From assembly GCF_000332275.1 (NCBI RefSeq), contig NZ_CM001776.1, forward strand, positions 434,001-498,000: a stretch of 64,000 nt of DNA. The letters run 5' to 3'. Of the stretch, positions 3,901-18,651 are shown piece by piece. The stretch's first letter is position 1. Each line of letters opens with the position of its first letter. The notes below the pieces were generated by a model that did no database searches, had not been told where the DNA came from, and saw only the letters and a list, made by a program, of their open reading frames with translations. This DNA comes from Synechococcus sp. PCC 7336. Its GTDB lineage: Bacteria > Cyanobacteriota > Cyanobacteriia > Thermostichales > PCC-7336. A program made the translations under genes and the position numbers.

Positions 3901-6900
3901 GCCGCCAGAATGGATGCCTCGCCAGTGGAAGACAGACTGTTCCCTTCTTCTGAGTCGTAATTAATGATGTTTTCCAGGGTGTCGGTGCCGAGATCGAACT
4001 CGTGGTTGCCCAGAGCAGAGGCATCGAACCCAATCAGGTTCATGATGGTGATGTCTACTCGACCTTGGAAGTTGTCAATCTCGTCAAAGAAGTCGGGATC
4101 GCCATCGCCATTAATGTCGGTCACGTAGACATCGGCAGCGGTTAGACCTGCCGTATTTTGGGTCGGATCGAGCAGGAAGGCATCGATTTCGCCATTGTCT
4201 AAGAAGCTATTGCCATCGGTGTCTGCCGAATCGGGGATGGCGGAGACATCCACTAGGGCTGCGGGGGTGCCGTCGCCATCGACATCGAAGATCGGAATCG
4301 TGTTGTATAGCCCTTCAAAGATGGGGTTGAACGCGTTCGGATCGGAGGCCGCATTGAAGAACGGACCGGAGATGAAGTTATCGCCCGCAGAGAGGGTGAT
4401 GGTGTTCTCGAATTCGGCTTCGAAAGCACTGACCAAAGCGGCAAAGTTCGGGGCGGCGGAAATGGCATCGACGCCCCCTTCGAGGTCGGAGGCGTGCAGC
4501 AGTTGCAGTGTGAAGTTAGCGGGCTCCACGGGGTCCGCAGATAGATCTAAACGGGCCACTAGGGGTTCGTGGTCGCTGGCCGGAAGGACATCGTCAAACT
4601 CGATCGCATCGTCATCGCGGGTGAAGTCGTTGTTGACGTGGACAATATCGAATTCTGCCCCTTCAAGTATGGAGTCCGTGACAAAGAAGTTATCGAGCAC
4701 TTGGCTGTTGCCATCAAAGATGAAGGTGTAAGCATCTCCGTCCGCTTCAGCTTGCGAGATTAAGTTCGTTAAGACTCGTTCGTCACCCGTTCCCGGCAAG
4801 ATTTCGACTAAGTCGTTGGTGAACTGGAAAGTGTTGAGGTCGCCAGCCACAACGATGTTGGCTGCGGGGTCAGTGGCGAGGAGGGAATCAACGAATTCAT
4901 TGTTCGCCAGAGACTGAGCCTCGCGAGCAGCTTCGCCCGCCTGTACGAAGGGCTGCGGTCCTCCAAAGATCGGTGTGGAGCCAAATCGGGAGGAGAAGTG
5001 GTTGTTGACTACCATCACGGTTTCGCCGTTGAAGCCAAAGGTCCCGACAACCGGAACGCGGCTACCGGCAAAGGCATCGGGATTACTGACCCCTGCCGCT
5101 GCCAAAGCAGTTGGCGTCAGAGCATCCATCCCTTCAAGGGTGACTCGGTCGGGGTTGTAGAGGAAAGCATTGCGGATGTTGCCGCCTGGAACGCCCCCCT
5201 GGAGCTCGGTGAACTCGCCTTCATTACCCACCCCCGCTGCATTGAAGACATCGAAGAATTGGTAGGTGGGGCCACCGGCAGCGGCGATCGCATCGACTAA
5301 ATCCTGCAGCGTCTGACTGGCATCGCTAACCAGGCTGTTACTGCCGCCGTTTTCACCATCGTTATCCTGAATTTCTTGCAAGGCGATGATGTCGGGGGAG
5401 CCTAGATTGTCAATGATTTGAGCTGCCAGGCGATCGCGCTGAGCGGCATCGGGATCGAGACCGCCCTCATCTGCAAGCGTACTGGTGAGGTTCAATACGT
5501 TGTAGCTAGCGACCGTAAGTTGGTCTTCAGTCCCTACCAGGTCGGTGACCTCCTGCTCCAGTCCGCTAGGCGTGACAACATTGACGGGACCGGTGAGGTT
5601 GACTTCGAAATTACCGAAGCTGTATCCCACAACCCCAGTCACATCTCCCAACTGGTCCCCCACATTCAAGGCCGGAGGGGTAGATTCCCCAGAGATGGTG
5701 GGATCGAACTGAATTTGGACCCGCTCGGGGTTTCGATCGCCCAAATTATCGGGGCCGGAGTCGAGGTTGATGCCGCCCCGACTATTGAGGGGGTCGTCAG
5801 AGGTGGCCCCCAGATTGGGGAGAGTGAATGCCTCTGCAGAGAAGGGGGTAAAGACCCGCGTGGGGGAAACGGCAACGGCAGCTTCGATGGTGACCCGTTG
5901 ACCTTCCAAGCTCTCGTAGAAGTCAATGGCATCGTTTTCTGGATCGAAATTATTCGCGACATCGTCGGCTGCATTTTGCAGATTTACCGGCAATTCGTCG
6001 TCGCTAATGACTGTCGTATTCGCAGGCAAGCGACCGCTCTGTCCAATCACCACTGCGTCGGGCAAGGCATTGCCGCTGCTGTTCGCCGAGATGTCAGAGG
6101 CGTTGAGCTGGGTAATGGAAAGGTTGCCAGTGCCAGCGCCCCCCGGAATAATCTCAGCCACCGTCCCTTCGACCTCAACCTCATGCCCAACCGCAATGCC
6201 AGCGGTGCTGCCCGCCACAAAAATGCCGTCAGAGGTGTTGTCGTCGCCATCCCCTACAGCATCTTGCAAGTAGAAGCCATTGAAGGCGATCGCCGTGACA
6301 ATTCCCGTCGTCTGCACGAGTTCGCCCAGCAGCGGAGAAAGATGTCCGGCCCCTTGAATCTCATAAATGGCTGCAACGGTTACGGGATCTGGGTCAACAT
6401 CGGGAGCTTCACCCTCGGCAAACAGAATGTTATCCACAAAGATGTTCTCAACCCCCGAATTGGTATCGACGCTGAGGGTCAGGGTTAACTCATTGTCAAA
6501 GCCGCTGGTGTTTATCAGCTCGTCCAAGTCAACCGTGACGGTGTTCCAATTGGGGGTGCCGTCGTCGGGAGAAACGTTGGCCTCTAGTTCGGCCTCGCCG
6601 AAGTTGAGGAACGTTTGGGAATGGGTGCCATCGCTCAGGCTGAAGGAGAAGGCATCATCCGCCTCGAAGCCCGTATCGTTAATCCAGTAATCGAAGCTGA
6701 GGAAGCTTTGGTCGATGTCCGTCAAATCGACCGACTCAAACACTAAGTCCAAGCGTCCGTCGCCATCGTTGAACTGGAAGTTGTGCTCCACTCCCGCCGC
6801 GACAGGGGTGCCATCGGCAGCCACATCGGGGGCATTCGCGCCAATAAAGGAGTTGACGCCAATAAAATCTCCAGACTCAGTGCCCGCTGCAGGACCGGCG

Positions 6901-9860
6901 GCACCTCTGGTCTCGAAGAAGAAAGTCTGAAAATCTAAGCCCGGTCCGCCACTGTTAACAGACCCAGCATTGGTTAAGGGCTCGCCATCGGCCAATTGGT
7001 CGGTCGTGAAGGTGGAACTGGAGTCGAGGTCGTTGAAAGCTTGAGCGGCGATCGCCCCTCCAGGACCGGGGTCATCCAAGTCGGAGATTTCGAAGATAGT
7101 GGTGGAGCCACTCACTTCATTGGCAACCACCAAGAGTGGGTTGCCGTTGGGGCTATCTTCAGCCGAGATGAACACCAAGCCCTCGGGACCGGAATCGCCT
7201 GCGGCAGGGTTGGACGACCCGTCGGGCAGTTCGAGGTCAAGACTGAAGTCGCGATTGTTGATGTACTGAACAAAGCTGGAATTCGCCGGATCGGAAATGT
7301 CAAAGACCGCAATGCCGCCAATGCGTTCCAAGCCAATAAAGGCAAAGGTGCGATCGCCGACGGTGCCGACTGCAATCCCTTCCGGCTCCGGCCCGCCGTC
7401 ATCGCTGCGGCTATCGAAGCTACCGTTTTCGTCATTGTCTGAGTTGAAATCCTCCGGCAATGCGGCGGCGGTAATCTGCTCCAATTGGTCGCCGCTGTCG
7501 AACACGATGTTGCCTAAAGCATCGCGGATAGAGAAAGAACGGCTACCAAAAGCAAAGAGCTGGTCGAAATCCCCATCGCCATCGATGTCTCCGTCGATGG
7601 TGGAGACTTCCAAGCGGCCCAAGTTTTCATCCAGTTGCAGGGTGTCAGCATCCGGGAAGGCGTCGGGATCGAGGGTTAAATCCCCAACGCGATCGATATC
7701 GGTGAGGTCGTCAAAACTATCTCGGCCATCCCCTTCGTTCGCAGTAATGAAGAAGGTTTGACCGTCGATCTCGAATGACGCAATCGTGTCGGGTTGGAAC
7801 AGACCAAAAACCGGGAAGTTATCGATATTGATGGCACCGTCATCGTCGCTGGGGTCCAAACCATTGGAGCTCTCGAAGCTGATGATGCCCAGTTGGGTGG
7901 GGGTACCGGGGCCTTCGTAATCGTTGTCGTTGAGCACGGCTAAGCGTCCGTCACTCAACAGGGCCAATCCTTCAGACTGGGCACTGGGGCTAAAGCCCAA
8001 AGAGGGCAAATTAGTGACCTGAATCTTGTTGACTGGCTGTATGCCTGCTGCCGCTAGATCGTCTGGAGAGAGAGTCTCCAGCGTTGCGCCGTCGGTGGCA
8101 TTCGCGATATCGGTGCCGAGAATATTGGTTGCCCCTTGCAGGTCGATCTTGAAGATGAACTGCTGAGCGGTATCGATATCCTCGTTATCTCGCTCGATGA
8201 CATAAAACTGACCGTCACCGGCAAACACGGCGTCGCCAATCCGATCCACTTCTGCGCTGCCAAAACTGGTGCTGGGATCGGTTGTGACCAATGCGGGCGT
8301 CTGCAAAACGTAGACAAATTCCTCAATCGGTACGCCCGTGACCGGATCGATGCCCAAAATGCGCAGAATGCTGGAGCCATTGCTGGTGGCGGTGTCGGGG
8401 TTAGACAGCGGCGTTTGAATGAAGCCGTAAACAATATTGCGCTCGGTGTCGAAAGCAATGCCCTCAAAACCGCGATTGTTGCGGCGGTTTAGATAGACTT
8501 CGGGCAGCGTTTCGCTGCCAAAGGTACCTGCAGGGGAGCCTGTTTCGTCTTGGGCCGCGAAACCGATGGGCACAAAGCGATCGATGAGTGCGCCCTCGGA
8601 GGAGAAAACATTGATGGACGGGGCCTGCTCGTCTGCAATGTAGAGATTCCCAGTGGAGGGATCGCGGATGATGCCTTCGCTGTCCAAACCAAAGAAATCG
8701 TTTGGCAGTGGATCGCCAGTTTCGGGATCGACAGGGACTTCAAAGAAACCTGGAATATTCGGGAGTCCCGTCAGGGGGACGGAAACCGGAAACGGTACCC
8801 CTACAACACTGATTTCGCGGGTTAAACCGAGGCTATCGACAATCGAAACTTGACCCGAGGCTTCATCCAATTCGAGGGTGAGGACGGTGACTTGCAGCTC
8901 GGGGGCGAAGAAGGGGCGATCGCTAGAATCTGGGTCGGGAGTATCGAGCGCGCCGCCGACAGGACCGCGATCGTTAATCGCTACAAACCGAGGATTGCCA
9001 TTGTCGGGGTTGAATCCATCGAAGGCCAATCCCGATAGACCGCCGAGAAAAATCGGATTGCCATCCGGGTCGGTGCCAATTTGAAAGGATTCCGTTGTCA
9101 GCTCGGGGATGTCAAAGGTTTCGAGTTCCGGCAACCCTCGGCTGAAATCGGTAACGCCCAGAGGCAGAATATCCAACACAGTGGCAGACTCGATATCCAC
9201 CACCGCCACAGCATTGTTTTCCTGCAGCGTGACAAACGCGGTGGTGCCATCGGGAGAAACAGCGATGAACTCGGGTTCGAGATCCTGCGCTGCCGTTCGA
9301 CCGGGGAAGATGCGCACCCCATCGCCGCGCAAATCGTTCTCGCGACCGTTAAAAGCAGAGAAATCAGCCGTGGCAACCGTGGCCTCTTCCACACCTGCCG
9401 ACAGATCGATAATGCTAATCGTTCCTTCTGGATCGACTTCCAGCAAATTGCCATCGCCGACGGGCTCCCCTTCGTTGGCAACCAATAGTTTGGTTCCATC
9501 TGGGGTAAAGGTGACGGCATCGGGCAAGACTCCGACCCCAACCACATTCGAGAGAGACAGATCTGCAGCATTGAAAAAGGCGACTGTACCCGTTTCGGTC
9601 TCGGTGACATCCTCTAGGGCAACTGCAACGATGCCGTTGGCCACTGCGACGCTGTTAGGCCCGCCGCTGAGACTGACATCGAGAGACGCGATCGGAGTGG
9701 GGTTTGTCGGATCGGAGAGATCGAGAACGTCGATCGCATTGCTATCGCCATTCACCACAAACAGCCGCTGGGAGCTGGGATCGAAAGCTGCAATTTCGGC
9801 AGCGCTTTCATCAAATACTCCTGTCGTAAATGTCCCAATTTGGTTGAGTTCGATTGACAT
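966..9860 (-). CDS. Giant secreted RTX protein: choice-of-anchor I / phytase-like, ExeM-type nuclease, 5'-nucleotidase
   Basis: About 2,964 residues from the ATG at 9860. A longer frame reaches 9929, but its first 23 residues look like leader noise, while MSIELNQIGTFTTG begins the recognisable domain. Order of parts: a choice-of-anchor I beta-propeller (about 1-270 and 683-925), split by an esterase-like/phytase-family domain (about 277-680, LSGLAFDG and RGFEGIAF); a beta-sandwich segment (about 950-1150); an OB-fold plus endonuclease/exonuclease/phosphatase domain as in ExeM/NucH nucleases (about 1160-1770; IIALQEIQD, VAGDLN, SDHEPL); a 5'-nucleotidase metallophosphatase (about 1785-2480; ASDLEGG, GNHEFD, NGGGIRD); calcium-binding GGxGxDxL repeats (about 2600-2805); and a C-terminal tail like a type I secretion signal. 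There is no Sec signal, which fits ABC-exporter secretion. Likely role: extracellular phosphate release from DNA, nucleotides and perhaps phytate. No exporter genes lie nearby. Confidence 0.88.
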   Translation of the reverse strand: MSIELNQIGTFTTGVFDESAAEIAAFDPSSQRLFVVNGDSNAIDVLDLSDPTNPTPIASLDVSLSGGPNSVAVANGIVAVALEDVTETETGTVAFFNAADLSLSNVVGVGVLPDAVTFTPDGTKLLVANEGEPVGDGNLLEVDPEGTISIIDLSAGVEEATVATADFSAFNGRENDLRGDGVRIFPGRTAAQDLEPEFIAVSPDGTTAFVTLQENNAVAVVDIESATVLDILPLGVTDFSRGLPELETFDIPELTTESFQIGTDPDGNPIFLGGLSGLAFDGFNPDNGNPRFVAINDRGPVGGALDTPDPDSSDRPFFAPELQVTVLTLELDEASGQVSIVDSLGLTREISVVGVPFPVSVPLTGLPNIPGFFEVPVDPETGDPLPNDFFGLDSEGIIRDPSTGNLYIADEQAPSINVFSSEGALIDRFVPIGFAAQDETGSPAGTFGSETLPEVYLNRRNNRGFEGIAFDTERNIVYGFIQTPLSNPDTATSNGSSILRILGIDPVTGVPIEEFVYVLQTPALVTTDPSTSFGSAEVDRIGDAVFAGDGQFYVIERDNEDIDTAQQFIFKIDLQGATNILGTDIANATDGATLETLSPDDLAAAGIQPVNKIQVTNLPSLGFSPSAQSEGLALLSDGRLAVLNDNDYEGPGTPTQLGIISFESSNGLDPSDDDGAINIDNFPVFGLFQPDTIASFEIDGQTFFITANEGDGRDSFDDLTDIDRVGDLTLDPDAFPDADTLQLDENLGRLEVSTIDGDIDGDGDFDQLFAFGSRSFSIRDALGNIVFDSGDQLEQITAAALPEDFNSDNDENGSFDSRSDDGGPEPEGIAVGTVGDRTFAFIGLERIGGIAVFDISDPANSSFVQYINNRDFSLDLELPDGSSNPAAGDSGPEGLVFISAEDSPNGNPLLVVANEVSGSTTIFEISDLDDPGPGGAIAAQAFNDLDSSSTFTTDQLADGEPLTNAGSVNSGGPGLDFQTFFFETRGAAGPAAGTESGDFIGVNSFIGANAPDVAADGTPVAAGVEHNFQFNDGDGRLDLVFESVDLTDIDQSFLSFDYWINDTGFEADDAFSFSLSDGTHSQTFLNFGEAELEANVSPDDGTPNWNTVTVDLDELINTSGFDNELTLTLSVDTNSGVENIFVDNILFAEGEAPDVDPDPVTVAAIYEIQGAGHLSPLLGELVQTTGIVTAIAFNGFYLQDAVGDGDDNTSDGIFVAGSTAGIAVGHEVEVEGTVAEIIPGGAGTGNLSITQLNASDISANSSGNALPDAVVIGQSGRLPANTTVISDDELPVNLQNAADDVANNFDPENDAIDFYESLEGQRVTIEAAVAVSPTRVFTPFSAEAFTLPNLGATSDDPLNSRGGINLDSGPDNLGDRNPERVQIQFDPTISGESTPPALNVGDQLGDVTGVVGYSFGNFEVNLTGPVNVVTPSGLEQEVTDLVGTEDQLTVASYNVLNLTSTLADEGGLDPDAAQRDRLAAQIIDNLGSPDIIALQEIQDNDGENGGSNSLVSDASQTLQDLVDAIAAAGGPTYQFFDVFNAAGVGNEGEFTELQGGVPGGNIRNAFLYNPDRVTLEGMDALTPTALAAAGVSNPDAFAGSRVPVVGTFGFNGETVMVVNNHFSSRFGSTPIFGGPQPFVQAGEAAREAQSLANNEFVDSLLATDPAANIVVAGDLNTFQFTNDLVEILPGTGDERVLTNLISQAEADGDAYTFIFDGNSQVLDNFFVTDSILEGAEFDIVHVNNDFTRDDDAIEFDDVLPASDHEPLVARLDLSADPVEPANFTLQLLHASDLEGGVDAISAAPNFAALVSAFEAEFENTITLSAGDNFISGPFFNAASDPNAFNPIFEGLYNTIPIFDVDGDGTPAALVDVSAIPDSADTDGNSFLDNGEIDAFLLDPTQNTAGLTAADVYVTDINGDGDPDFFDEIDNFQGRVDITIMNLIGFDASALGNHEFDLGTDTLENIINYDSEEGNSLSSTGEASILAAFPDLVNFLQEVDFPGIQFPYLSSNLDFSADPEIGNLFTDEILLSTEFASDLLSARANPADPFETAADSNDDRIAPSTVIEVGGELIGVVGATTPLLESISSPGLVEVLPSSDAIAELATIIQTEIDELLAFDDGSGRSLDKVILVSHLQQFAIEAEQLAPLLSGVDIIVAGGSDQIVADQEDIDRGLQPGDTIDNVFDIDPDTPSVQPGYPFVTSDADGNPVAVVSTDGEYSYVGRLAIEFDSNGNIIPESVDETVSGAFATTDAGVIAQFNQAGALTDAEALEAAFADGTSQQVVQDLVNNVTNVVNLQDGNIVGQSDVFLNGARSSVRNEETNFGNLTADANIFVAREIEDIDTSPILVSIKNGGGIRDIIGFVGQLDDGTVVQTTTQANPAAGKEAGDVSQLDIANTLRFNNGLELVTLTSEQLLEVLEHAVAESQPDMFNEPGQFGQVGNIRFSFDPTQAARSFDPNTLEQITAGDRILNVTVFDEATGEFVPVVVDGEVLPNAPAAIRVVTLDFLENGGDSYPFPVFEALDPDFYNEVNLEAEFAALASGSFQDLADFADAGSEQDALAELFFAEFNEDLGGSAFGVEDTSVSEDERVQNLSFREDTVLPSLAVLIGTDGDDILQGTADGDSIFGLAGDDIIKGRAGDDELFGADGDDFLKGDSGNDTLLGGAGDDDLKAGQGDDDLQGGGGNDDLFGRAGDDTLVGGEGDDDLFGGGGADTLEGGGGNDDLRAGGGADTLYGGEGDDDLIGGGGADTLMGGSGNDDLFGGGGADFIAGGSGSDDLFGNGGADTLMGGGGSDRLNGGGGNDTADFSDIPVGVTADLAAGTAFYEPAPDVLITDTLRSIENLTGTVFNDNLAGDARANILNGVGGADALTGGAGGDTFVLGDESGAFYAEAGTADVAELTDFATGEDRIQLSGSLGDYAFFSLGSGPATAIALDDGNGSFDFLGDELVAFVGNGFELTDLAFV
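1420..2045 (-). repeat. RTX (hemolysin-type calcium-binding) nonapeptide repeat block
   Basis: DNA inside the giant gene that encodes roughly 20 tandem GGxGxDxLx nonapeptides. These form calcium-bound parallel beta-rolls and precede a type I secretion signal. The low-complexity coding produces long spurious open frames on the opposite strand. Confidence 0.9.
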
Positions 9861-9929
9861 GACTAGCCCTACCCCAAAACATGAATTAAATCGACGATTG
9901 AACCACCCATAAAATTCCAAACAAAGCAA

Positions 9930-10601
9930 TCAGTGCTCCACACTATTGGAGGAGCCCACACGAGCCTGACGATATCTGGAGAGCCAAACTCACCATTGCA
10001 GGAGACTTAAAGTTTTCTCCTAAATCAGTGGCTTGGATGAAGTTTAAGTAGATGGTTTCACGTATGACGCCTTCAATGTCCCATGGTTCACCTCAAAACA
10101 GGTAAAACTCTGGTTAAGGTAGACTTATTGAGAGGCTAAAATCTAAGTATTTTTACGTTTATCTTACGAAATGAAAGCAAAATGTATCGCAGATATAATC
10201 CTTGTGAAGAAAGATTGCTCGATGCAGGTGATATTAAACACACTAGAACTGCTGAATTAAACCTGAACGCGATTTCATCAGATGGGATTGGGTCAAGCTA
10301 TTTTTGGTATTGAATAGAAAGAGCGAGCAGCCTGCTGGATTCCTCGCCAGCAGTGTAGTAAAAATTCCAACAGAAACCTCAGAAACCTAGAGTTGCTGTA
10401 GTACATAGCTTTGCTAATCATTCCTATAGAAAAAACTTATAATTCTAAGCATATCGAAGCAGAATCACCATATGTTTTTTCTTGGTGATTTACATGATAT
10501 TTGATATGCTAATCCTAGAGTTGATTCAACATGAGAAAAATATCTGAATATTATCTCTCGTGTTGATAAAAACTAGTGATGAAATCTAAAGAGGTATTTC
10601 C
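9930..10601. other. Intergenic region, divergent promoters
   Basis: No open frame of note. The stretch is AT-rich and must carry the promoters of the minus-strand RTX gene and the plus-strand DoxX-like gene. Besides the PHO-box candidate it has one small hairpin (7-bp CTGCTGG/CCAGCAG, 10332-10353) without a T-run. Confidence 0.5.
10100..10118 (-). promoter_or_regulatory. Candidate PHO box (SphR/PhoB-type)
   Basis: Read on the minus strand, two 8-bp units, CTTAACCA and TTTTACCT, are separated by 3 bp. The cyanobacterial Pho box is tandem PyTTAAPyPy(T/A) units with about 3-bp spacers: the first unit fits exactly and the second has one mismatch. It lies about 240 bp upstream of the phosphate-scavenging RTX gene in the matching orientation. 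A third unit is not evident, so this is a candidate only. Confidence 0.4.
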
Positions 10602-11033
10602 ATGATTGAGACTAAACTTTCCAATCGATTGCCAATAGTTCTATTCATACTACGATTGAGCGTGTTTGCTGTAATGGTGATTTGGGTACTCGATAAGTTC
10701 CTAAATCCCAGTCATACAGCTGCAGTATTCTCAAGCTTTTATTTTATCAATAATTTAAGCAGCACATTAGCCTATGTTATTGGATCGCTACAAGCGATTG
10801 TTGTCGTAGCTTTTCTGGTAGGGTTTTTAAAAAAATGGAGTTACGGTTTGGTTTTAGCAATGCATTCGGTTTCAACCCTATCTTCATATAAGCAATACCT
10901 TGCTCCTTATGAAAGCGTAAACATTCTCTTCTTTGCTGCATGGCCTATGTTAGCTGCTTGTATCGCACTCTATATGCTACGCGACTTTGATACTCGATGG
11001 AGCATTGGCAAAGCAGCAACCAGATCGGAGTAA
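10602..11033 (+). CDS. DoxX-like small membrane protein
   Basis: 143 residues with about four hydrophobic segments (near 10-32, 48-80, 84-100 and 107-128) and an Arg/Asp-rich tail (RDFDTRW). The pattern, with an early RLSVFAVMVIWVLDKF helix, resembles DoxX/DoxD-family membrane proteins, which are loosely tied to respiratory or redox functions. It stands alone on the plus strand next to the AT-rich minus-strand cluster. No cofactor-binding motif was seen, so the function is unknown. Confidence 0.55.
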   Translation: MIETKLSNRLPIVLFILRLSVFAVMVIWVLDKFLNPSHTAAVFSSFYFINNLSSTLAYVIGSLQAIVVVAFLVGFLKKWSYGLVLAMHSVSTLSSYKQYLAPYESVNILFFAAWPMLAACIALYMLRDFDTRWSIGKAATRSE

Positions 11034-11067
11034 TATTACTTCCTACATTCAAAGTTCAAATATATCG

Positions 11068-11162
11068 AAGAGAAGCTCGATAAATCTCTGAGCATAGTTC
11101 ACTAAAAAACTGAAAGCTTTTTTCTGCTGTAACTTTCTCAGAGATTTAATTTTTCGAGGCTC
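11068..11162. terminator. Long imperfect palindrome after DoxX-like gene
   Basis: An 11-bp perfect inverted repeat (AAATCTCTGAG at 11082-11092 with CTCAGAGATTT at 11137-11147) has flanking partial complementarity (AGCTCGA/TCGAGGCT) and an inner A6...T6 stem around GAAAGC. It is positioned as the transcription end of the DoxX-like gene. Confidence 0.45.
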
Positions 11163-11195
11163 CTTTATCAATATTCTGCAAAACTTTAAGACGAG

Positions 11196-11229
11196 GACAA
11201 TAGTTTTGCAGAACCGTAAAACTATTGTC
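11196..11229. terminator. 12-bp perfect inverted repeat between convergent genes
   Basis: GACAATAGTTTT and AAAACTATTGTC pair perfectly around a 10-nt loop, 33 bp past the stop of the alpha/beta hydrolase gene. The T-run inside the stem suits termination of the minus-strand transcript. An operator cannot be excluded. Confidence 0.45.
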
Positions 11230-11262
11230 GAATCGACCGATTTATAAAATTTTCAGATGAAT

Positions 11263-12138
11263 TCAGCATGCTGAGGTTGATTCAATAAATTGAATTATCT
11301 CATCAGCAAATTCTCCAGGTGCATCTTGAGGTATCCAATGAGAAGCGTTTTGTATACAGACCAACTTACTATTTGGAATTTCTTGCTTTAATCTTTGACC
11401 ATCTTGGATGGTTTGCCAGGGATCGTCGATTCCCCAAAGGAGAAGGGTAGGGGATAAAATATCTTTATGACGATCTACCAAAGCCATTGTATGATTAGTA
11501 TTGAGTGCAGAAGCATTACGAATTAGACTTATCTTTCCTTCTTCATTTGCATAAGGAGCAACGATTCCTTCTTTAAATTCTGAAGTTAACTGTTCCGGGC
11601 GAGATATCCCTTCAGACAGACCGTCAGTAAGATAGGCAACAATTTCTTGAGTTGATTTAGACTTCCAAAGAGGACTACCCAGCATCAACATGTCATCAAT
11701 GGGCCAAGAGTCGTAAGCCACAATATTAGAAAGGATTAGACGCTTGAGACGATCTTTGGCTTCGATACCTAAAATCAAACCGACTCCTCCTCCAGTGTCA
11801 TGTCCGACAAGATTGACACGGTCGAGCTCGAGAGCATCAAAGAATCGAAGTAGCATCTTAGCTTGAGCAATCAATGAGCGATCGAAGCGATCGCGCTTGT
11901 CCGACCAACCATGTCCCAAGAAATCAGGGGCAATCACTCTGTACTTAGACGCTAGAAGAGGAATAACACTGTTATACAGATAAGACCATGTAGGAATGCC
12001 ATGTAAGAGAACAATTGGTTCTCCTTCCCCAATGTCTGTATATGCTATCTGGACAGGTATATGAAAAATATCATCCAACTCAATTGATTTCTGTCTCGCC
12101 CGAAAAGTTTTATCATCCATTGAATTCATCTGAATCAT
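11263..12138 (-). CDS. Alpha/beta hydrolase with Asp nucleophile (dehalogenase/epoxide-hydrolase type)
   Basis: 291 residues, full length for the fold. The oxyanion motif is HGIPTWS and the nucleophile elbow is GHDTGG, with Asp instead of Ser as in haloalkane dehalogenases, fluoroacetate dehalogenases and epoxide hydrolases. The acid is likely the Asp in WGIDDPW and the catalytic His is in NASHWIPQD. It has no signal peptide, so it should be cytosolic. An AGGA-type site precedes the ATG. It is the last gene of a minus-strand series behind the Lrp regulator gene, so it may belong to the same pathway. The substrate is unknown. Confidence 0.8.
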   Translation of the reverse strand: MIQMNSMDDKTFRARQKSIELDDIFHIPVQIAYTDIGEGEPIVLLHGIPTWSYLYNSVIPLLASKYRVIAPDFLGHGWSDKRDRFDRSLIAQAKMLLRFFDALELDRVNLVGHDTGGGVGLILGIEAKDRLKRLILSNIVAYDSWPIDDMLMLGSPLWKSKSTQEIVAYLTDGLSEGISRPEQLTSEFKEGIVAPYANEEGKISLIRNASALNTNHTMALVDRHKDILSPTLLLWGIDDPWQTIQDGQRLKQEIPNSKLVCIQNASHWIPQDAPGEFADEIIQFIESTSAC

Positions 12139-12270
12139 TATCTTTTCCTGTTAGTCTAAAGTCTTTAAATGGTATAAACTTGTCTGATAGATTTCCTCCT
12201 TGGACAGGAAAAAGTCTATCGAAAAATTAATCAGGCAAATTAATCATTCGTCCATAGTTGTAATATATTT

Positions 12271-12747
12271 TCAGAGAATATATTTATACTCGGCTTTAAG
12301 AAGTTTAATTAGGACTTGGGATTCGTAGTTGATAATGCCAGGAATGAGGTGAAGTTTTTCAAAGAAAACTAATAGCTCTTCATGCGGTCCAAAAAAGACA
12401 TCTACCATAATGTTATATTTACCTGTAATTACAGCAACATATCGTATTTCACTCATATTTGATAATTGCTCTGCAACTTCATCTATATATTGAATTTCTA
12501 CAGAGATTGAAACAATTAAGATATGAGGCTTGCCTAACTTATCAGGATTAGGCCAAGCAGATATCTCGATGGTTCCTGATTGCAAAAGACGTTGAACTCT
12601 ATAGCGAGCTGTAGCCTCCGGAATTTTTAAACGTTTAGCAATCTCTGAGAAAGACATCCGCCCGTCAATACGCAATAAAGCGACGATCTCCCGATCTACT
12701 GAATCTAGCTGGTTAACAGAAGATGAAAGATTCCCAGGTTGAGTCAT
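12271..12747 (-). CDS. Lrp/AsnC family transcriptional regulator
   Basis: 158 residues with the classic layout. An N-terminal winged helix (about 15-62, starting LDSVDREIVALLRIDGRMSF and containing EIAKRLKIPEATARYRVQRL) is followed by a RAM ligand-binding domain (about 75-150, with GKYNIMVDVFF). Members form octamers or dimers and usually sense amino acids or related small molecules while controlling adjacent genes and themselves. The gene lies inside a minus-strand metabolic cluster with an ectoine-synthase-like gene. Ectoine catabolic clusters of proteobacteria also carry an AsnC-type regulator (DoeX), which makes a cluster-specific sensor plausible. Confidence 0.9.
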   Translation of the reverse strand: MTQPGNLSSSVNQLDSVDREIVALLRIDGRMSFSEIAKRLKIPEATARYRVQRLLQSGTIEISAWPNPDKLGKPHILIVSISVEIQYIDEVAEQLSNMSEIRYVAVITGKYNIMVDVFFGPHEELLVFFEKLHLIPGIINYESQVLIKLLKAEYKYIL

Positions 12748-12922
12748 GGTAGTGTCTGGCCATTATGTAAACCGAATAAGGCTAGCTTAATAGGTTTACA
12801 GTCGGAAGGCAAGATGAATTACTGGGGATGAATTCATTTTCAACCAAAGCCAGCAAAAAAAGATTACAGCTTGTGAATTTAGGAGTGGATTCCAATTTGA
12901 GTAGAAACCGCAAACAACAGAT

Positions 12923-13153
12923 TCAATAGCTTGCCTCCATATCAGTAACTGCGAGGGCTAGAGATAAATTTTTGTCATGAAGAATGTCTGCAACTTTTTC
13001 TCGGATATCTATGCTAATGGATAGGTTTGAGAGTAAATCTTGAGCTAATTGTCTGGCACGAGCACTAGTCTCTACATCTTTCGTGTCTATGTCATCAAGT
13101 AATCTATTCAGCTCGCGAGTAGTATAGCTAAATCCTTCAATAACTAGCTTCAT
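12923..13153 (-). CDS. Unrecognised 76-residue acidic helical protein
   Basis: The ATG is preceded by GGAGACC about 9 nt upstream, a good ribosome-binding site. The protein is acidic and predicted mostly helical (FSYTTRELNRLLDDIDT, then ARQLAQDLLSNLS) and ends in a short tail, AVTDMEASY. It has no cysteines, signal peptide or membrane segment. It lies between the cupin and the Lrp gene in the same direction. It could be a regulator, a carrier or scaffold-like protein, or a peptide-natural-product precursor. Nothing identifies it firmly. Confidence 0.6.
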   Translation of the reverse strand: MKLVIEGFSYTTRELNRLLDDIDTKDVETSARARQLAQDLLSNLSISIDIREKVADILHDKNLSLALAVTDMEASY

Positions 13154-13252
13154 AGCGAAAAGGTCTCCTATTTGTTCACAATAACTGGATATGGCTTAAT
13201 AAGGATTGAGGTAAGGATTTAGCATAGAGGTTTTGCTAAATCCTTACGGTCA

Positions 13253-13630
13253 TTAATAACAGGAGGAGTCACCATCTGATAAGTTATGAGACTCATCTCC
13301 TTTTAAAGCAGGTGCAAACATACAGACAAGTCGCATATCCGTTTTAGCGCGTAAGTAATGCTTGTCATTTTCATTGAGAGCATAGATAGTTCCCACTTTT
13401 ATTGGGTGTACTTTCCCTCCAGCTTCTACTTCTCCTTCCCCCTCAATGCAATAGCATGTCTCTAAGTGGTTTGTATACTCTAGAAGAGATTCCGTACCTG
13501 CATGCACGATTGTATCTGTGACCGTATACCCCATGCCATCGCGTTCGATTAAGAAGCGACGACTTTGACCGTTACCCCATTCGACATCGCGCTCGGTATT
13601 TACGAGTTCATCCAAGTGTCTTACAATCAT
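13253..13630 (-). CDS. Ectoine synthase-like (EctC family) cupin
   Basis: 125 residues from the ATG at 13630, which has GGAGG 5 nt upstream; an in-frame start 14 codons earlier lacks this. It begins MIVRHLDEL, the EctC N-terminus. The EctC iron and substrate positions are kept in order: Y-x-x-H-x-E in EYTNHLETCYCIEGEGEVE, Tyr in GTIYALN, His in NDKHYLR, F-x-P in MFAPAL, and G-x-E-x-H in KGDESH. The pocket strand FSFH of true EctC is YTVT here and the tail is SDGDSSCY. EctC closes a cyclic amidine in N-gamma-acetyl-diaminobutyrate. ectA and ectB are absent, so a different substrate is likely. Confidence 0.85.
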   Translation of the reverse strand: MIVRHLDELVNTERDVEWGNGQSRRFLIERDGMGYTVTDTIVHAGTESLLEYTNHLETCYCIEGEGEVEAGGKVHPIKVGTIYALNENDKHYLRAKTDMRLVCMFAPALKGDESHNLSDGDSSCY

Positions 13631-13692
13631 CTGAACCTCCAGCAGTTGCGCTTTACTTTGATAAGACTCCAATGTTCAAAAATTTAAGCCTA

Positions 13693-14961
13693 CTAAGCTG
13701 TTACAGGAATTTTCTTATTCTGACCGTCATTGACTTTCAGGTCTCTCAGTAGTCTTCCGTGTGGCTTAATTAAATGTCCGTCACGAATCACCAAACTTGG
13801 AACCAACCTTTCTTTTCCAAATATCTCCTCACCAAAAGAATCATAGAATGGCCATGCTTCAGATACGATGTCAAGAATGGTGATATCTGCACGCGAACCA
13901 ATTGCTAAAGTTCCAATTTCTTTTTCAGATCTTAGAATGCGAGCAGGATGAAGAGTGGTACCAGATATAACTTCTTGAAGCGTAAAGCCTAATGCCATTA
14001 ACTTCGACATCACGCCACATAGGCTAAAGTTTAAGCTTGCATCACTATGAAGTGCGGTAAAATCTCCATGAACGTCACTACTAATTGTGTAGGGACGTAG
14101 ACCCTGCTCTAACATGCGGCGAGCGATGTCAAAGCTAAAATGAATTCCATGACCTAGGTCTAGCAACAAACCTTCTCGTACAGCATCAATCAGAGATTGA
14201 GGAACTTGCTGGCGTTCTCCCAATAGGCCATCTGGTCGAGCGCCATAGCAATGCGTAAACATATCGCCAGGTTTGACGAATGGGATAATTTTGTCAATAA
14301 CCTGTGCTGCTTCTGGTCGATTTGAGTCATCTACATCAAAAAGAACCCCAGTATGAAAATAAAGAGGTAAATTAGCTCGATCGGCAGCTTCACGAGCTAG
14401 CTGTATTACTTCTGTCCCCCAACGGGACATTGTGCCTGACTCTCCATGAGCTTTAATTCCCCGAATAATTTCAGGGTTTTGTTCGGCTAAATAGACTAAA
14501 GCATCAACATCGACCATATCGGGACTATATAGTGCTAGTTTATCGCTGTCGGGTGAAGCTGTACCTAAGATATTAATGCAGGGAAAGCAGCGTACATCTG
14601 TGATTGAATTTTCTACGATATATGCTTTAAAACCAAGAAAACTAGATGAGCCACAATCGCCTTGATCGACAATTGTTGTAACACCTGCATGGATACCGGC
14701 ATCATCTGCATTGAGGCTATCACTGACTACCCATTCATAAATGTGAGCGTGAAGGTCGATCAGTCCTGGGCAGACTATTCGATCTGAAACAGAGACAATC
14801 TTATCTGCTTTATGCTTGGGGATTTCAGGGGCAATAGATGCAATGGCATTATTGCGAATAGCCAAGTCTGCTATCATATCGAAGTTCTGTGCTGGGTCGA
14901 TAATTCGACCTCCTTTTAAAACTAAGTCATACCGGTCTTGATGGTTTGTTGTTGAGTTCAT
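13693..14961 (-). CDS. Amidohydrolase/deacetylase-family metallohydrolase
   Basis: 422 residues with the amidohydrolase-superfamily fold: an N-terminal beta-sandwich (LVLKGGRIIDPAQNFD), the metal motif HxH in GLIDLHAHIYEW, a likely carboxylated Lys in IKAHGESG, metal His in YFHTGV and FTHCYG, and the final Asp in SSDVHGD. It closes with the C-terminal sandwich strand typical of hydantoinase/dihydroorotase-like enzymes (GSRADITILDI). The best family fit is the COG3964-type amidohydrolase/deacetylase. It lies between the desaturase and the EctC-like cupin genes, so it may hydrolyse an N-acyl or cyclic amide or amidine intermediate in the same pathway. Confidence 0.85.
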   Translation of the reverse strand: MNSTTNHQDRYDLVLKGGRIIDPAQNFDMIADLAIRNNAIASIAPEIPKHKADKIVSVSDRIVCPGLIDLHAHIYEWVVSDSLNADDAGIHAGVTTIVDQGDCGSSSFLGFKAYIVENSITDVRCFPCINILGTASPDSDKLALYSPDMVDVDALVYLAEQNPEIIRGIKAHGESGTMSRWGTEVIQLAREAADRANLPLYFHTGVLFDVDDSNRPEAAQVIDKIIPFVKPGDMFTHCYGARPDGLLGERQQVPQSLIDAVREGLLLDLGHGIHFSFDIARRMLEQGLRPYTISSDVHGDFTALHSDASLNFSLCGVMSKLMALGFTLQEVISGTTLHPARILRSEKEIGTLAIGSRADITILDIVSEAWPFYDSFGEEIFGKERLVPSLVIRDGHLIKPHGRLLRDLKVNDGQNKKIPVTA

Positions 14962-15068
14962 AATTCGGCACTCGCTCGAGGGTTATCAGTTAATACAACA
15001 GCTGAGTGTACGCGATCGAGAAGAGTCAATGGCTTTATATCCGTAAACTCTTCTCTGGTACTTGCGAA

Positions 15069-16217
15069 CTAACCTTCTACATATGTCTCTTTCGAATATG
15101 CATTCGACGTTATCTCTACCCAATCAAATGATTTCCGTAGCATCAAAAAGGAGATTCCTGTAGCTCCTACAAAGTTTTCTAACTCAAGTCCAGAATCGGT
15201 CCTTTTTACGTTGCCCTGCCCCCAAAATAATCGTCGAATACGATAGCTCTGTTTGAAGTAATTACCAAGTAACTTAAAGACAGATATTCTTTGCTCGTAT
15301 TCAGTTGGATAGAGTTGGTCATCCAGCTTTTCTAGCAAGTACCAAGGGCAGGTCATTAAGCGGTGATGTGCGTTGTGGTAGTTATGATTGAGAAACACTA
15401 ACAGATCGAGCCAACGCCACTGACGCGATATATAAATTGTGTAAGTGTTCTCTTCTTCATGCTCTTGGCTATACCACGGGATCTTCCTGTCAATTCCATA
15501 TGCTGGGAAGGTATGCTGAAAGCACTCTAAAAACTGCGTAATGTTCAGGAATAGAATATATCCAATGAAATAGACGATCGCAGCCTTGGGCGAGTATAGC
15601 GCTAGCCCTGTAAATAGACTCCCTCTTACTAAGAGAATTATCCCATTTCGGAGGCGTTCATTTTTTCGATTTTGACTTAAGAAAGGTGCTAAGGCTATCA
15701 TCCAACGCAATGTTAGATTAATGGCTGGAAAATAGATAAGCTCTAATGCCACAATTATCTTTCGAATAGGCACTGGAAGGGATAACAGGAAATCTGTCAG
15801 AGAAAAGGGAGCAAAAGGAGATAGATCTACTCGCTTTGTGTGGTGTACTATGTGATGGTGTTTCAAGTCTTTGTAGCGGCTATAGCAAGATCCTGTCATG
15901 AAGAGCACCGCTTCGCCAAGCCAATCATTCAATTCTTGCTGTGAGAAAATGTTGTCGTGAAATAGCTCGTGGGCAAAGTAAGCAGCCCACATTAGAGAGT
16001 GAACTAGTGCGATAACCCCTATCAGATTGAGCCACCAAATATCTGATGAAATTCCAAATATGGAAAAAGTGTAAGCACCAAGCAAATATACTATCGCTAT
16101 TCCGTTGACCCAAGAGCTATAGTGACGTGCATAGGATTTAAGGCTTAAAGATTGCTCTTTTCTTACAGGAATACCCTTAGCTTTAGCTTCAGGGGGACTT
16201 AGGCTTGGAGTAAACAT
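15069..16217 (-). CDS. Membrane di-iron fatty acid desaturase-family protein
   Basis: 382 residues with four or more membrane helices and the three histidine boxes of integral-membrane desaturases/hydroxylases: HELFHD (about 88), HHHIVHH (about 119) and HNYHNAHH (about 280). GAGG lies upstream of the ATG. It is the first gene of the minus-strand cluster. Members desaturate or hydroxylate acyl chains, carotenoids or other lipophilic substrates, and some act in natural-product pathways. Its partners here are amino-acid-derivative enzymes rather than lipid genes, which suggests a tailoring role, but the substrate is unknown. Confidence 0.85.
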   Translation of the reverse strand: MFTPSLSPPEAKAKGIPVRKEQSLSLKSYARHYSSWVNGIAIVYLLGAYTFSIFGISSDIWWLNLIGVIALVHSLMWAAYFAHELFHDNIFSQQELNDWLGEAVLFMTGSCYSRYKDLKHHHIVHHTKRVDLSPFAPFSLTDFLLSLPVPIRKIIVALELIYFPAINLTLRWMIALAPFLSQNRKNERLRNGIILLVRGSLFTGLALYSPKAAIVYFIGYILFLNITQFLECFQHTFPAYGIDRKIPWYSQEHEEENTYTIYISRQWRWLDLLVFLNHNYHNAHHRLMTCPWYLLEKLDDQLYPTEYEQRISVFKLLGNYFKQSYRIRRLFWGQGNVKRTDSGLELENFVGATGISFLMLRKSFDWVEITSNAYSKETYVEG

Positions 16218-16517
16218 TATTAACCTCTAGCTATTAACCTCTGCTGCAATTCATATTATGTAATGAATCCCTAACAATAATTAGAGAATTGTGAGACATT
16301 TATTAAAAAAATTCTTGTAACAGTACTTTAAAGTGCTTATCTTTAATGAATCAGCAATTTAATTGCTATTTTCTTGCGATAAACGCAGAAAATAGCCGTA
16401 TTATGCTGGTGTTGAGTTTTGGCAGTCGATTCGATAATGTTGTTTTGAGCACTTTCAGAGTTTTAATTTGTTCTGGATTTCCAGTCGATACTCTTTAGCG
16501 ATCGCATAAACATATCT

Positions 16518-16613
16518 GAGAATAAATACTTATCAGAAATCTTGGAACGTGATGAGAATAAATACTTACCAAGAAATCTTGGAACGTGATGAGAATAAAT
16601 ACTTACCAATGAG
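16518..16613. repeat. Tandem repeat, 36-37 bp unit, about 2.6 copies
   Basis: Units 16518-16553, 16554-16590 and a partial 16591-16613 share GAGAATAAATACTTA followed by GAAATCTTGGAACGTGAT, with one- or two-base changes. They sit upstream of the desaturase promoter. There are no spacers, so this is not a CRISPR. Confidence 0.85.
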
Positions 16614-16918
16614 CACTAATCATGATGAGTAGAGCAACTTCATAAAGATATTGATTGGCGATGTAGCAGCTTTACCGAGAGCGATCTTCTAGTCTTTGCC
16701 AGACAGCAGCGCAAAATAAGTATTAAGTATATTTGCCCATTTTTCGAGCACATCAAGATATTCTCAAGCTTTATGCAGCTGAAATTGTGTCTGCGTTGAG
16801 AATTAGAGCGCGTGAGAACCCTTGTCTCAATTGCACCACCTTCCTCGATGCTGATTTTAGCCGCAAGCAACTGATGCCAATCGAGCTCGATGCAGCAGGG
16901 CTCGCTCCACGGCACTTT

Positions 16919-17087
16919 GGCTTTGTTCTACAACTGTTCGTCACTGCGATCGCCTTCCCAGCCTCCCAACTCCAACGAGCACTGTACTCAAGTCCCCCAG
17001 AATGGGGGATTTAGCGGGCGAATGCAGCGATTGACCGCATTCGTGGGAGGAACTCAAAACTACGGGTTTCAAGCTAGATTCGGTTTA
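16919..17087 (+). repeat. Dispersed noncoding repeat, copy 1
   Basis: Shares the order GGCTT-GTTCTACAACT ... AAGTCCCCCAGAATGGGGGA ... AAAACTACGGGTTTCA ... CGGTTTA with 37350-37543, with small indels. The core CCCCCAGAATGGGGG is palindromic. It is noncoding in both places, which suggests a MITE-like or structured repeat family. Confidence 0.7.
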
Positions 17088-17426
17088 AGGTTTGAAGCTT
17101 TTGCTTTCTAGGCACATAGCGTTTTTCTGATATCTGCCAGAATACCTTCTGACTAGTAATGCCTAATTTCCAGAGTATGATATTCTCGATTAGAGCGAAA
17201 ACTTTTACTTCTCAATCTATAGGCTTGTTTCGGGTCATCTAGCTATTTAGAATGAGTACTTTTAGAAATCCGATTTATTATGGAATTTGTTAACCTCCTA
17301 TGATATTGCGCTTAATAATCGATTGCCAGACTATCTGAAAGCGTATCTTTAGTAAGGCAGACAGTGGGAGCCTTAAGGCATGAAGTATAAGTTCAGACAG
17401 GTATGCTCTAATGAAAAGAATCTTAG

Positions 17427-17861
17427 GTGAAACTGAAAATGGCTTATGTACTTGCAATTCTTGCTATGGTAACTCTCGGCATTGGAAATTTTATTTTTAA
17501 GATAAGTACAGATACCATCGGACCGATCTATACAACACTTTTTTATTATGTGTTTGGAACTTTCATCGGAATGTCGTTTTGGTGGTTTTCCGAACAAAAA
17601 TCTGCATTTCAGATATCTACCCAATGGAGTGGCTTGATTTGGCCTGCCTTGGCCGCATTGTCGATCGCACTGAGTGTATTATCGTTTAGTACGGCTCTCA
17701 AATCATTACCTGTCTCACTGGCATCTACAATATTAAACTTATCATTTATTGTTACTACGATCCTTGGATTGATGATTCTAAAAGAGAGCTTGAGCCTCAA
17801 AGATATCGTCGCTATTTTATTGGCAGTAACGTCGATCGTTATTTTTGGTTTAGGCAAGTGA
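17427..17861 (+). CDS. EamA-family (drug/metabolite transporter) half-size protein
   Basis: 144 residues, four to five membrane helices. The C-terminal pattern ALKSLPVSLASTILNLSFIVT ... LGLMILKESLSLKDIVAILL is the EamA repeat signature. Canonical EamA exporters have two such repeats in about 300 residues; this is a single repeat, as in small DMT proteins that work as dimers. The next plus-strand gene is far away. It may export a small metabolite, and proximity to the EctC-like cluster makes that pathway a candidate, but this is inference. Confidence 0.8.
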   Translation: MKLKMAYVLAILAMVTLGIGNFIFKISTDTIGPIYTTLFYYVFGTFIGMSFWWFSEQKSAFQISTQWSGLIWPALAALSIALSVLSFSTALKSLPVSLASTILNLSFIVTTILGLMILKESLSLKDIVAILLAVTSIVIFGLGK

Positions 17862-17941
17862 TCGGTTGCAGCTTGATGAGTGGCAAGTTTGGCTTGAAGC
17901 TCAACCATCCCTATCGATTGCTCGGGTGAGTGGTGCAAAAA

Positions 17942-18136
17942 CTACTGCGAGAAAAGAGTTAGAAGCAATTCACTGCCCACAAAGCAGCAGAGACCGGAGA
18001 GAAAGCCAATGGCGAAAATTTGTCCGATCGCCTTGCGAGTCGTAATGGCAGAATTGGGCTGCTGTAGAGATGACTCGCCGTTGAGAGCCAAAAGCATTCC
18101 TTTAGAGCAGAGGATTGCAATAAAAAATGCGTTCAT
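17942..18136 (-). CDS. Possible 64-residue membrane protein
   Basis: Starts MNAFFIAILCSKGMLLAL and has a second hydrophobic stretch, GQIFAIGFLSGLCCFVGSELLL. The ribosome-binding site is weak. It lies downstream of, and in the same direction as, the 38-residue frame. It could be a small membrane protein or a chance frame. Confidence 0.3.
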   Translation of the reverse strand: MNAFFIAILCSKGMLLALNGESSLQQPNSAITTRKAIGQIFAIGFLSGLCCFVGSELLLTLFSQ

Positions 18137-18290
18137 GGGTTTCTCGGGGCGAGGGCGATCGCCTCAACTTCAGAGCTACGAATCCCAATCTGGATATCGT
18201 CGATCTTCGGTCGTGCAAAGTACAAGCAGCAAAAACGACCGCTCACTCGCGGCCGATTTTAGAATGCCCCAAATCAGTCCTAATAAAACA

Positions 18291-18407
18291 TCAGGCGGCT
18301 TGCTTGGGTAATCTTTTTCGACCGAGTGGTTCGACTGCATACAGCAGTGTGACAAGTAAAACTGGCAAGACAGTAGAAATTGCGACCACGACCAAAAAGG
18401 CTTCCAT
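18291..18407 (-). CDS. Small single-helix membrane protein, 38 residues
   Basis: ATG at 18407 with GAGGGACTGAGG directly upstream, a strong ribosome-binding site. The protein is one hydrophobic helix (about 4-24, with LVVVAISTVLPVLLVTLLYA) followed by a basic tail (GRKRLPKQ), the build of small subunits of photosynthetic or respiratory complexes. It does not match any such subunit I can recall (PetL/M/N, PsaI/M, PsbX/Y/30 were considered). Confidence 0.5.
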   Translation of the reverse strand: MEAFLVVVAISTVLPVLLVTLLYAVEPLGRKRLPKQAA

Positions 18408-18651
18408 CCTCAGTCCCTCTATAGCAGGCAAAATTGTTCTTAATATTCAAGATTCCCATTGGTTTTAGTGTGTTTGCCGACTTGTTATATATCTAAAAGC
18501 TAAGAATTAAAGCTTAAATTTTGGTCAATCAGTATAAAAATTACAAAGACGCTTCTCGCAGTCCTCGACAACCAGCAGTTTCAGGCGTTGGGCGGGACAG
18601 TCAGAGTGCCTGCCCCTATAATTTGGGACAGTTTGTGGCGGAGTGTGTTGT

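Follow-up and report, generated by a model that had tools for sequence, protein, structure and literature searches.

The gene island

The window, a stretch of 64,000 nucleotides from Synechococcus sp. PCC 7336, contains an AT-rich island (9930–18600; about 40% GC) in a neighbourhood of 50–59% GC. Six genes lie within it, all on the minus strand and spanning 16217 to 11263: a membrane enzyme of the fatty-acid-desaturase family, di-iron type (15069–16217; 382 residues); an amidohydrolase-superfamily metallohydrolase (13693–14961; 422 residues); an EctC-like cupin (13253–13630; 125 residues); a 76-residue protein with an AGGAG site upstream (12923–13153); an Lrp/AsnC-family regulator (12271–12747; 158 residues); and an Asp-nucleophile α/β hydrolase (11263–12138; 291 residues). 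The first three form a conserved core, and the hydrolase gene is a co-conserved accessory; the 76-residue protein and Lrp are not conserved with the core. Divergent from the core, on the plus strand, lies a half-length gene for an EamA-family transporter (17427–17861; 144 residues; PF00892, 4.3e-15), a possible exporter.

With the cupin start at ATG 13630, the intergenic gaps are 107, 62, 99, 175, and 132 nt. The frequency of promoter- and terminator-like sites does not exceed chance, so the six-gene set is a plausible candidate operon only.

The first-pass annotation had described six same-strand genes of these kinds in AT-rich DNA, and all are present, five of them with Pfam support. The cassette genes have 37–43% GC (30–41% at third positions), as against 50–59% (52–70% at third positions) for other genes in the window. 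Cyanobacterial relatives of the cassette have 36–41% GC. The cassette therefore fits its AT-rich cyanobacterial relatives and not its host, which makes lateral transfer likely; acquisition from an AT-rich cyanobacterium would be the simplest reading. With 5.07 Mb in one contig, the window genome is the sole representative of its family in the collection scanned, and an EctC of the variant type described below was found in none of eight other genomes of the same order. A search of plasmids found no near-identical copies.

Other features adjoin these genes. A 37-bp tandem repeat, in two and a half copies, lies upstream of the desaturase gene (16517–16608). The island is also adjoined by an open reading frame of 2987 residues (966–9929), whose product resembles a large secreted phosphatase or nuclease and carries glycine-Asp-rich calcium-binding (RTX-like) repeats. 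Anti-phage defence was considered as a reading and rejected, because PADLOC gave only generic helix-turn-helix matches, in Lrp.

An EctC variant with a relocated tryptophan

The cupin had originally been read from TTG 13672 (139 residues). That start is unlikely: translation almost certainly begins at ATG 13630, judging by the Shine-Dalgarno-like CTGGAGG just upstream (13631–13645, minus strand) and by the resulting N terminus, MIVR, common to the family. The protein matches the Pfam profile Ectoine_synth (PF06339; 5.5e-44, 149.9 bits, cut-off 27) and the NCBIfam ectoine synthase model PRK13290 (156.2 bits, cut-off 128). Its AlphaFold model (pLDDT 89.8) has P. lautus EctC as the best PDB match (TM 0.86, rmsd 1.2). 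It is the only PF06339 match found in the window genome by profile search, and it is a member of that family outside any ect cluster. A genome-wide search yielded no match to ectA and no ectB over the cut-off (best, 240.6 bits versus 552.2), in agreement with the earlier statement that an ectABC operon is lacking.

Roles of active-site residues are assigned here after PMC6344544. There, Glu-57, Tyr-84, and His-92 of P. lautus EctC bind iron; Trp-21 is conserved in 437 of 437 EctCs from ect clusters; and the W21A mutant keeps 9.7% activity. The first-pass annotation had proposed an intact iron site in a changed pocket, and this was confirmed: E57, Y84, and H92 are kept, and the pocket strand reads YTVT where FSxH or FSLN is expected. 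Of the substrate residues, R25, T40, and Y52 are kept and position 38, Asn or His in canonical EctC, is Thr; Trp-21 has become Gly. This last change, with a Trp three residues earlier, is the most telling of all and was absent from that annotation.

The variant is not unique to the window; 39 members were compared. In a tree of 53 sequences these 39 split off, with support of 99/96, from the remaining 14, among which is the solved P. lautus enzyme; the variants were gathered with the window protein as query, and the sampling therefore favours them. In the Trp-21 column, as assigned by ungapped alignment, all 14 canonical proteins have Trp and all 39 variants, the window protein included, have Gly. 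The variants have an invariant Trp three residues before position 21, within a motif, WG[NA]GxS[RH]R, that is present in 39/39 of them and in 0/14 canonical sequences. The relocated Trp may fill a similar place in three dimensions and so substitute structurally; it also provides a one-line sequence test that separates the WGNG type from canonical EctC. The iron ligands, along with S23, R25, T40, Y52, and F106, are kept in every variant, and the lid residues F106, E114, and H116 are likewise invariant in all 39. Position 38, His or Asn in canonical EctC, is Thr in 36 of the 39, and position 51 is Glu in 33.

Both kinds of EctC can inhabit one genome. In S. griseus and Lentzea, ectA, ectB, and canonical ectC lie together (C10, C25), and a variant copy lies on another contig; several other Streptomyces likewise hold both. 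This coexistence bears on whether the cupin is a real ectoine synthase, making osmoprotectant ectoine from scavenged N-γ-ADABA, the role suggested for the lone EctC of Pseudomonas syringae. The profile score and the closest structure point that way, as do the retained iron site and most ligand residues. Moreover, the P. syringae protein restored ectoine to an H. elongata ectC mutant (PMC5924519). We nevertheless regard this reading as quite improbable: the residue so uniformly Trp in ect-cluster enzymes, and so costly to replace with Ala, is Gly throughout the variants; the window genome has no ectA and no true ectB; and a genome that already has canonical EctC may carry the variant as well.

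Partner proteins

The desaturase matches FA_desaturase (PF00487, 3.5e-28) and has the three His boxes in a membrane protein that mark its superfamily. The boxes (H83/H87; H122/H125/H126; H281/H284/H285) are invariant in an alignment of seven cyanobacterial homologues, the other six of which are 52–59% identical to the window protein. It has no NCBIfam match, its profile matches no PDB chain, and its AlphaFold model (pLDDT 43.4) is too poor for use.

The amidohydrolase matches Amidohydro_1 (6.9e-12) and scores 351.7 bits against NCBIfam PRK09237, under the cut-off of 371 and thus short of an equivalog assignment. Its nearest PDB entries are 2ogj, 8wzy, 8je0, and 2ics. The putative metal ligands H71, H73, K170, H203, H237, and D296 are invariant in three orthologues, namely the window protein and two others, 65–69% identical.

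The α/β hydrolase (Abhydrolase_1, 2e-28) has a GHDTGG elbow, and D114 (the Asp nucleophile), D239, and H267 are invariant in three orthologues, 74% identical. The halide-binding Trp that follows the nucleophile in HDWG is absent; all three orthologues have HDTG, so this is not a typical haloalkane dehalogenase. Lrp contains the AsnC helix-turn-helix and ligand domains (PF13404, PF01037), and the 76-residue protein matches neither Pfam nor NCBIfam. In ectoine catabolic clusters the AsnC regulator is adjoined by ectoine hydrolase (M24 type) and deacetylase genes, but neither Pfam domain was found in the genes examined at 10.6–20.3 kb of the window.

Conservation of the cassette

Scanning a genome collection with the EctC-like protein identified at least 28 loci. 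One counterpart, in a Nostocales genome (L090), encodes desaturase (62% identical), amidohydrolase (66%), and EctC (69%), arranged as they are in the window in both order and strand; 3 kb beyond them, the α/β hydrolase (74%) is encoded on the other strand. The order there is EamA, Rieske oxygenase, TetR, peroxiredoxin, desaturase, amidohydrolase, EctC. Desaturase is paired with EctC in four further cyanobacterial loci: L024, a second locus of that Nostocales genome; L027; L029; and one in Gloeothece PCC 7822. The genome that holds L027, with its EctC-desaturase pair, also has desaturase-amidohydrolase at a contig end (L101) and the α/β hydrolase in a separate place (L124), next to a TetR gene resembling that of L090. 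Among the matches listed, only two loci have the full desaturase-amidohydrolase-EctC order, L101 stopping at the contig edge after the amidohydrolase. Across 12 variant-bearing genomes, amidohydrolase and α/β hydrolase are both confined to one set of three, and a close desaturase is present in this set and in one more genome; the genomes are few and were picked for carrying EctC, so this co-occurrence is support and not proof.

Near EctC, EamA-like genes were also recognised in L019, L020, L021, L031, L024, and L090, by sequence and in some cases by tblastn. In Gloeothece PCC 7822 the desaturase-EctC pair is followed by genes for a GNAT acetyltransferase and a flavin halogenase-like enzyme; both kinds are also present in Moorena, a few kilobases on, and GNAT in Xenococcaceae. 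Moorena SIO3H5 (L029:8292–9218) has two tandem EctC variants of identical protein sequence, either real or an assembly artefact. Viral carriage was considered, but its sole trace is one IMG/VR contig (L134:2514–2858) that encodes an EctC relative, 39% identical.

The gene-order search thus recovered the core, the hydrolase, and the desaturase-EctC pairing, but not the remaining two genes. None of the first set of scanned loci had Lrp, amidohydrolase, or the 76-residue protein beside EctC; Lrp had no match at E 0.01 in 128 other loci, and the 76-residue protein had no significant relative in those loci or in plasmids. A conserved six-gene operon, as the first-pass annotation supposed, is therefore rejected. 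Since Lrp was the link to ectoine catabolism proposed there, its failure to travel with the core weakens that link too.

This weakening matters for a degradative or scavenging pathway, in which the cupin, acting in reverse, and the amidohydrolase would open a cyclic amidine, an amide, or a peptide-like compound taken up by the cell; Lrp would sense an amino-acid product, as happens when ectoine is catabolised. Lrp does lie within the cassette, and hydrolysis of ectoine analogues by H. elongata EctC has been reported (PMC5924519). In another cyanobacterial genus, amidohydrolase homologues (55–57% identical) lie directly behind dipeptide/nickel-type ABC genes (L120, L121); these were rejected as instances of the same cassette, their context being different and EctC not alongside, yet they would fit uptake or catabolism. 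So would S. meliloti, in which a near variant (WGSG) adjoins a dipeptide-type ABC transporter and an amidase. However, the island itself has no importer, only the EamA-type carrier; the SBP gene at 18643 belongs to the host-like DNA beyond the island. The clade's neighbours elsewhere are, moreover, mostly biosynthetic. Degradation is in our view unlikely.

The variant in other bacteria

Outside the window, the neighbours of the variant are varied, mostly biosynthetic, and not ectoine operons. In some loci they include AMP-ligase, ACP, acyl-CoA dehydrogenase, ketosynthase, and tryptophan-pathway paralogues; in others, ATP-grasp and peptide ligase genes, NRPS, or type I PKS; and in one setting, a Rieske/dioxygenase/radical SAM set near PKS.

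Two recurring arrangements deserve mention. In Actinobacteria and Proteobacteria (L104, L106, L107, L026, L032, L033, L034), the WGNG variant occurs with trpA, trpC, trpD, or trpF paralogues, AMP-ligase, and acyl-CoA dehydrogenase, often along with ACP and a transglutaminase-like protein. This cassette is arguably more striking than that of the window. In two cyanobacteria and a Desulfonema MAG (L025, L028, L030), the variant accompanies a periplasmic-binding/glycine-transporter fusion and a MurL-like (muramoyl-peptide epimerase) protein.

Such variety among neighbouring enzymes might mean that the cupin performs non-amidine chemistry (another dehydration, an isomerisation, or an oxygenation), having inherited only fold and metal site from EctC. 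Cupins are functionally diverse, and consistent changes affect the pocket at positions 18/21, 38, and 51. Against this, the residues that bind the amide and α-amine (E57, Y52, T40) are invariant in all 39 variants, as is the lid, which is beyond what fold and metal would need. Departure from amidine chemistry thus appears distinctly unlikely.

A proposed function

We consider the odds about even that the island is a specialised-metabolite cassette gained by lateral transfer, whose cupin acts on a non-ectoine substrate, either forming a cyclic amidine or related ring or running that step backwards. Occurrence of the variant in varied, mostly metabolite-making clusters, and not in ectoine operons, makes some other small ring compound its probable product. 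The cupin's role as a ring enzyme is suggested by its retained residues together with gene context. Residues that are kept would bring an amide oxygen to the iron and position the attacking amine, and those that are altered would steer the carbon chain and carboxylate; this points to cyclodehydration, or its reverse, with a different substrate. Because the Trp 'piston' and a carboxylate-contacting residue are both changed, that substrate is presumably other than N-γ-ADABA.

The core would then operate as desaturase, amidohydrolase, and EctC-like cupin, with the Asp-nucleophile hydrolase as accessory. In the cupin, iron-activated attack of an amine on an amide would form a cyclic amidine or similar ring, or open it again, by cyclodehydration or its reverse. 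The amidohydrolase might act on the same compound, removing or hydrolysing an acyl or cyclic amide, and the membrane di-iron enzyme might desaturate or hydroxylate it. A cyclic-amidine product with di-iron tailoring, the first-pass suggestion, would fit this scheme. The EamA carrier may export the product. Where a GNAT acetyltransferase adjoins EctC, it could supply the amide, as EctA does.

Several observations count against this explanation. The complete core order is seen in just two of the listed loci. The window cassette has no core biosynthetic enzyme next to it (PKS, NRPS, or ligase) that would point to a precursor, and the half-length EamA gene may be decayed. Because most residues that bind N-γ-ADABA or ectoine are kept, ectoine formation in vitro is possible. 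Finally, the S. meliloti context, along with the amidohydrolase homologues behind Dpp-type ABC genes, would fit uptake or catabolism.

More broadly, and with confidence somewhat short of even, the WGNG clade may be a distinct enzyme family, reused as a cyclising tool, for amidines or related rings, in natural-product clusters of many unrelated kinds across Cyanobacteriota, Actinomycetota, Pseudomonadota, and Thermodesulfobacteriota. If so, the puzzle of orphan EctC would be solved as neofunctionalisation and not as ectoine remnants, and the cyanobacterial cassette would offer a small, testable example of an unfamiliar pathway. One consequence is practical: 'ectoine synthase' is used to diagnose ectoine producers, and the WGNG type passes the NCBIfam cut-off, so wrong annotation results.

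Comparison with known systems

Our literature search for a desaturase/amidohydrolase/ectoine-synthase cluster found nothing relevant, and the available excerpts of PMC5924519 and PMC6344544 make no mention of such a cassette. The amidohydrolase resembles those around Atu3266 (2ogj), EF_0837 (2ics), and PRK09237 over its whole length, and shares their putative metal ligands. The α/β hydrolase resembles the haloalkane dehalogenase/epoxide hydrolase type in its nucleophile-elbow Asp and the positions of its Asp-His triad, but differs from haloalkane dehalogenase in HDTG for HDWG and in score (113.7 bits, cut-off 265).

With solved EctC structures (P. lautus 5ONM/5ONN/5ONO; S. alaskensis 5BXX/5BY5) the cupin shares fold, E57/Y84/H92, T40, Y52, S23, R25, F106, and the lid residues. 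It differs from canonical EctC in the replacement of Trp-21 by Gly, with Trp three residues earlier (WGNGxSRR); of His/Asn-38 by Thr; and of Trp-51 by Glu. It also belongs to a separate clade, has no ectA or ectB, and keeps other neighbours.

The nearest parallel is orphan or solitary EctC (PMC5924519 groups 2–3; PMC6344544 Fig. 5b), which also has no ect operon. Such proteins account for 145 of 582 of EctC type, their function being stated as unresolved (PMC5924519), and their substrate has been suggested to be chemically related to N-γ-ADABA (PMC5924519, PMC6344544). They share with the WGNG variants a broad set of taxa: Alpha-, Beta-, and Gammaproteobacteria, Actinobacteria, a few Cyanobacteria, and Deltaproteobacteria. 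One species named there as a carrier of orphan ectC, R. gallicum, has a WGNG-type EctC. In some orphan EctCs the Trp is described as shifted by two residues (PMC5924519, PMC6344544), as against three in WGNG variants. We infer that the WGNG variants are this known, unexplained group, for which the cassette is a new context. Together, conserved gene partners and the relocated Trp make orphan EctC testable by concrete assays.
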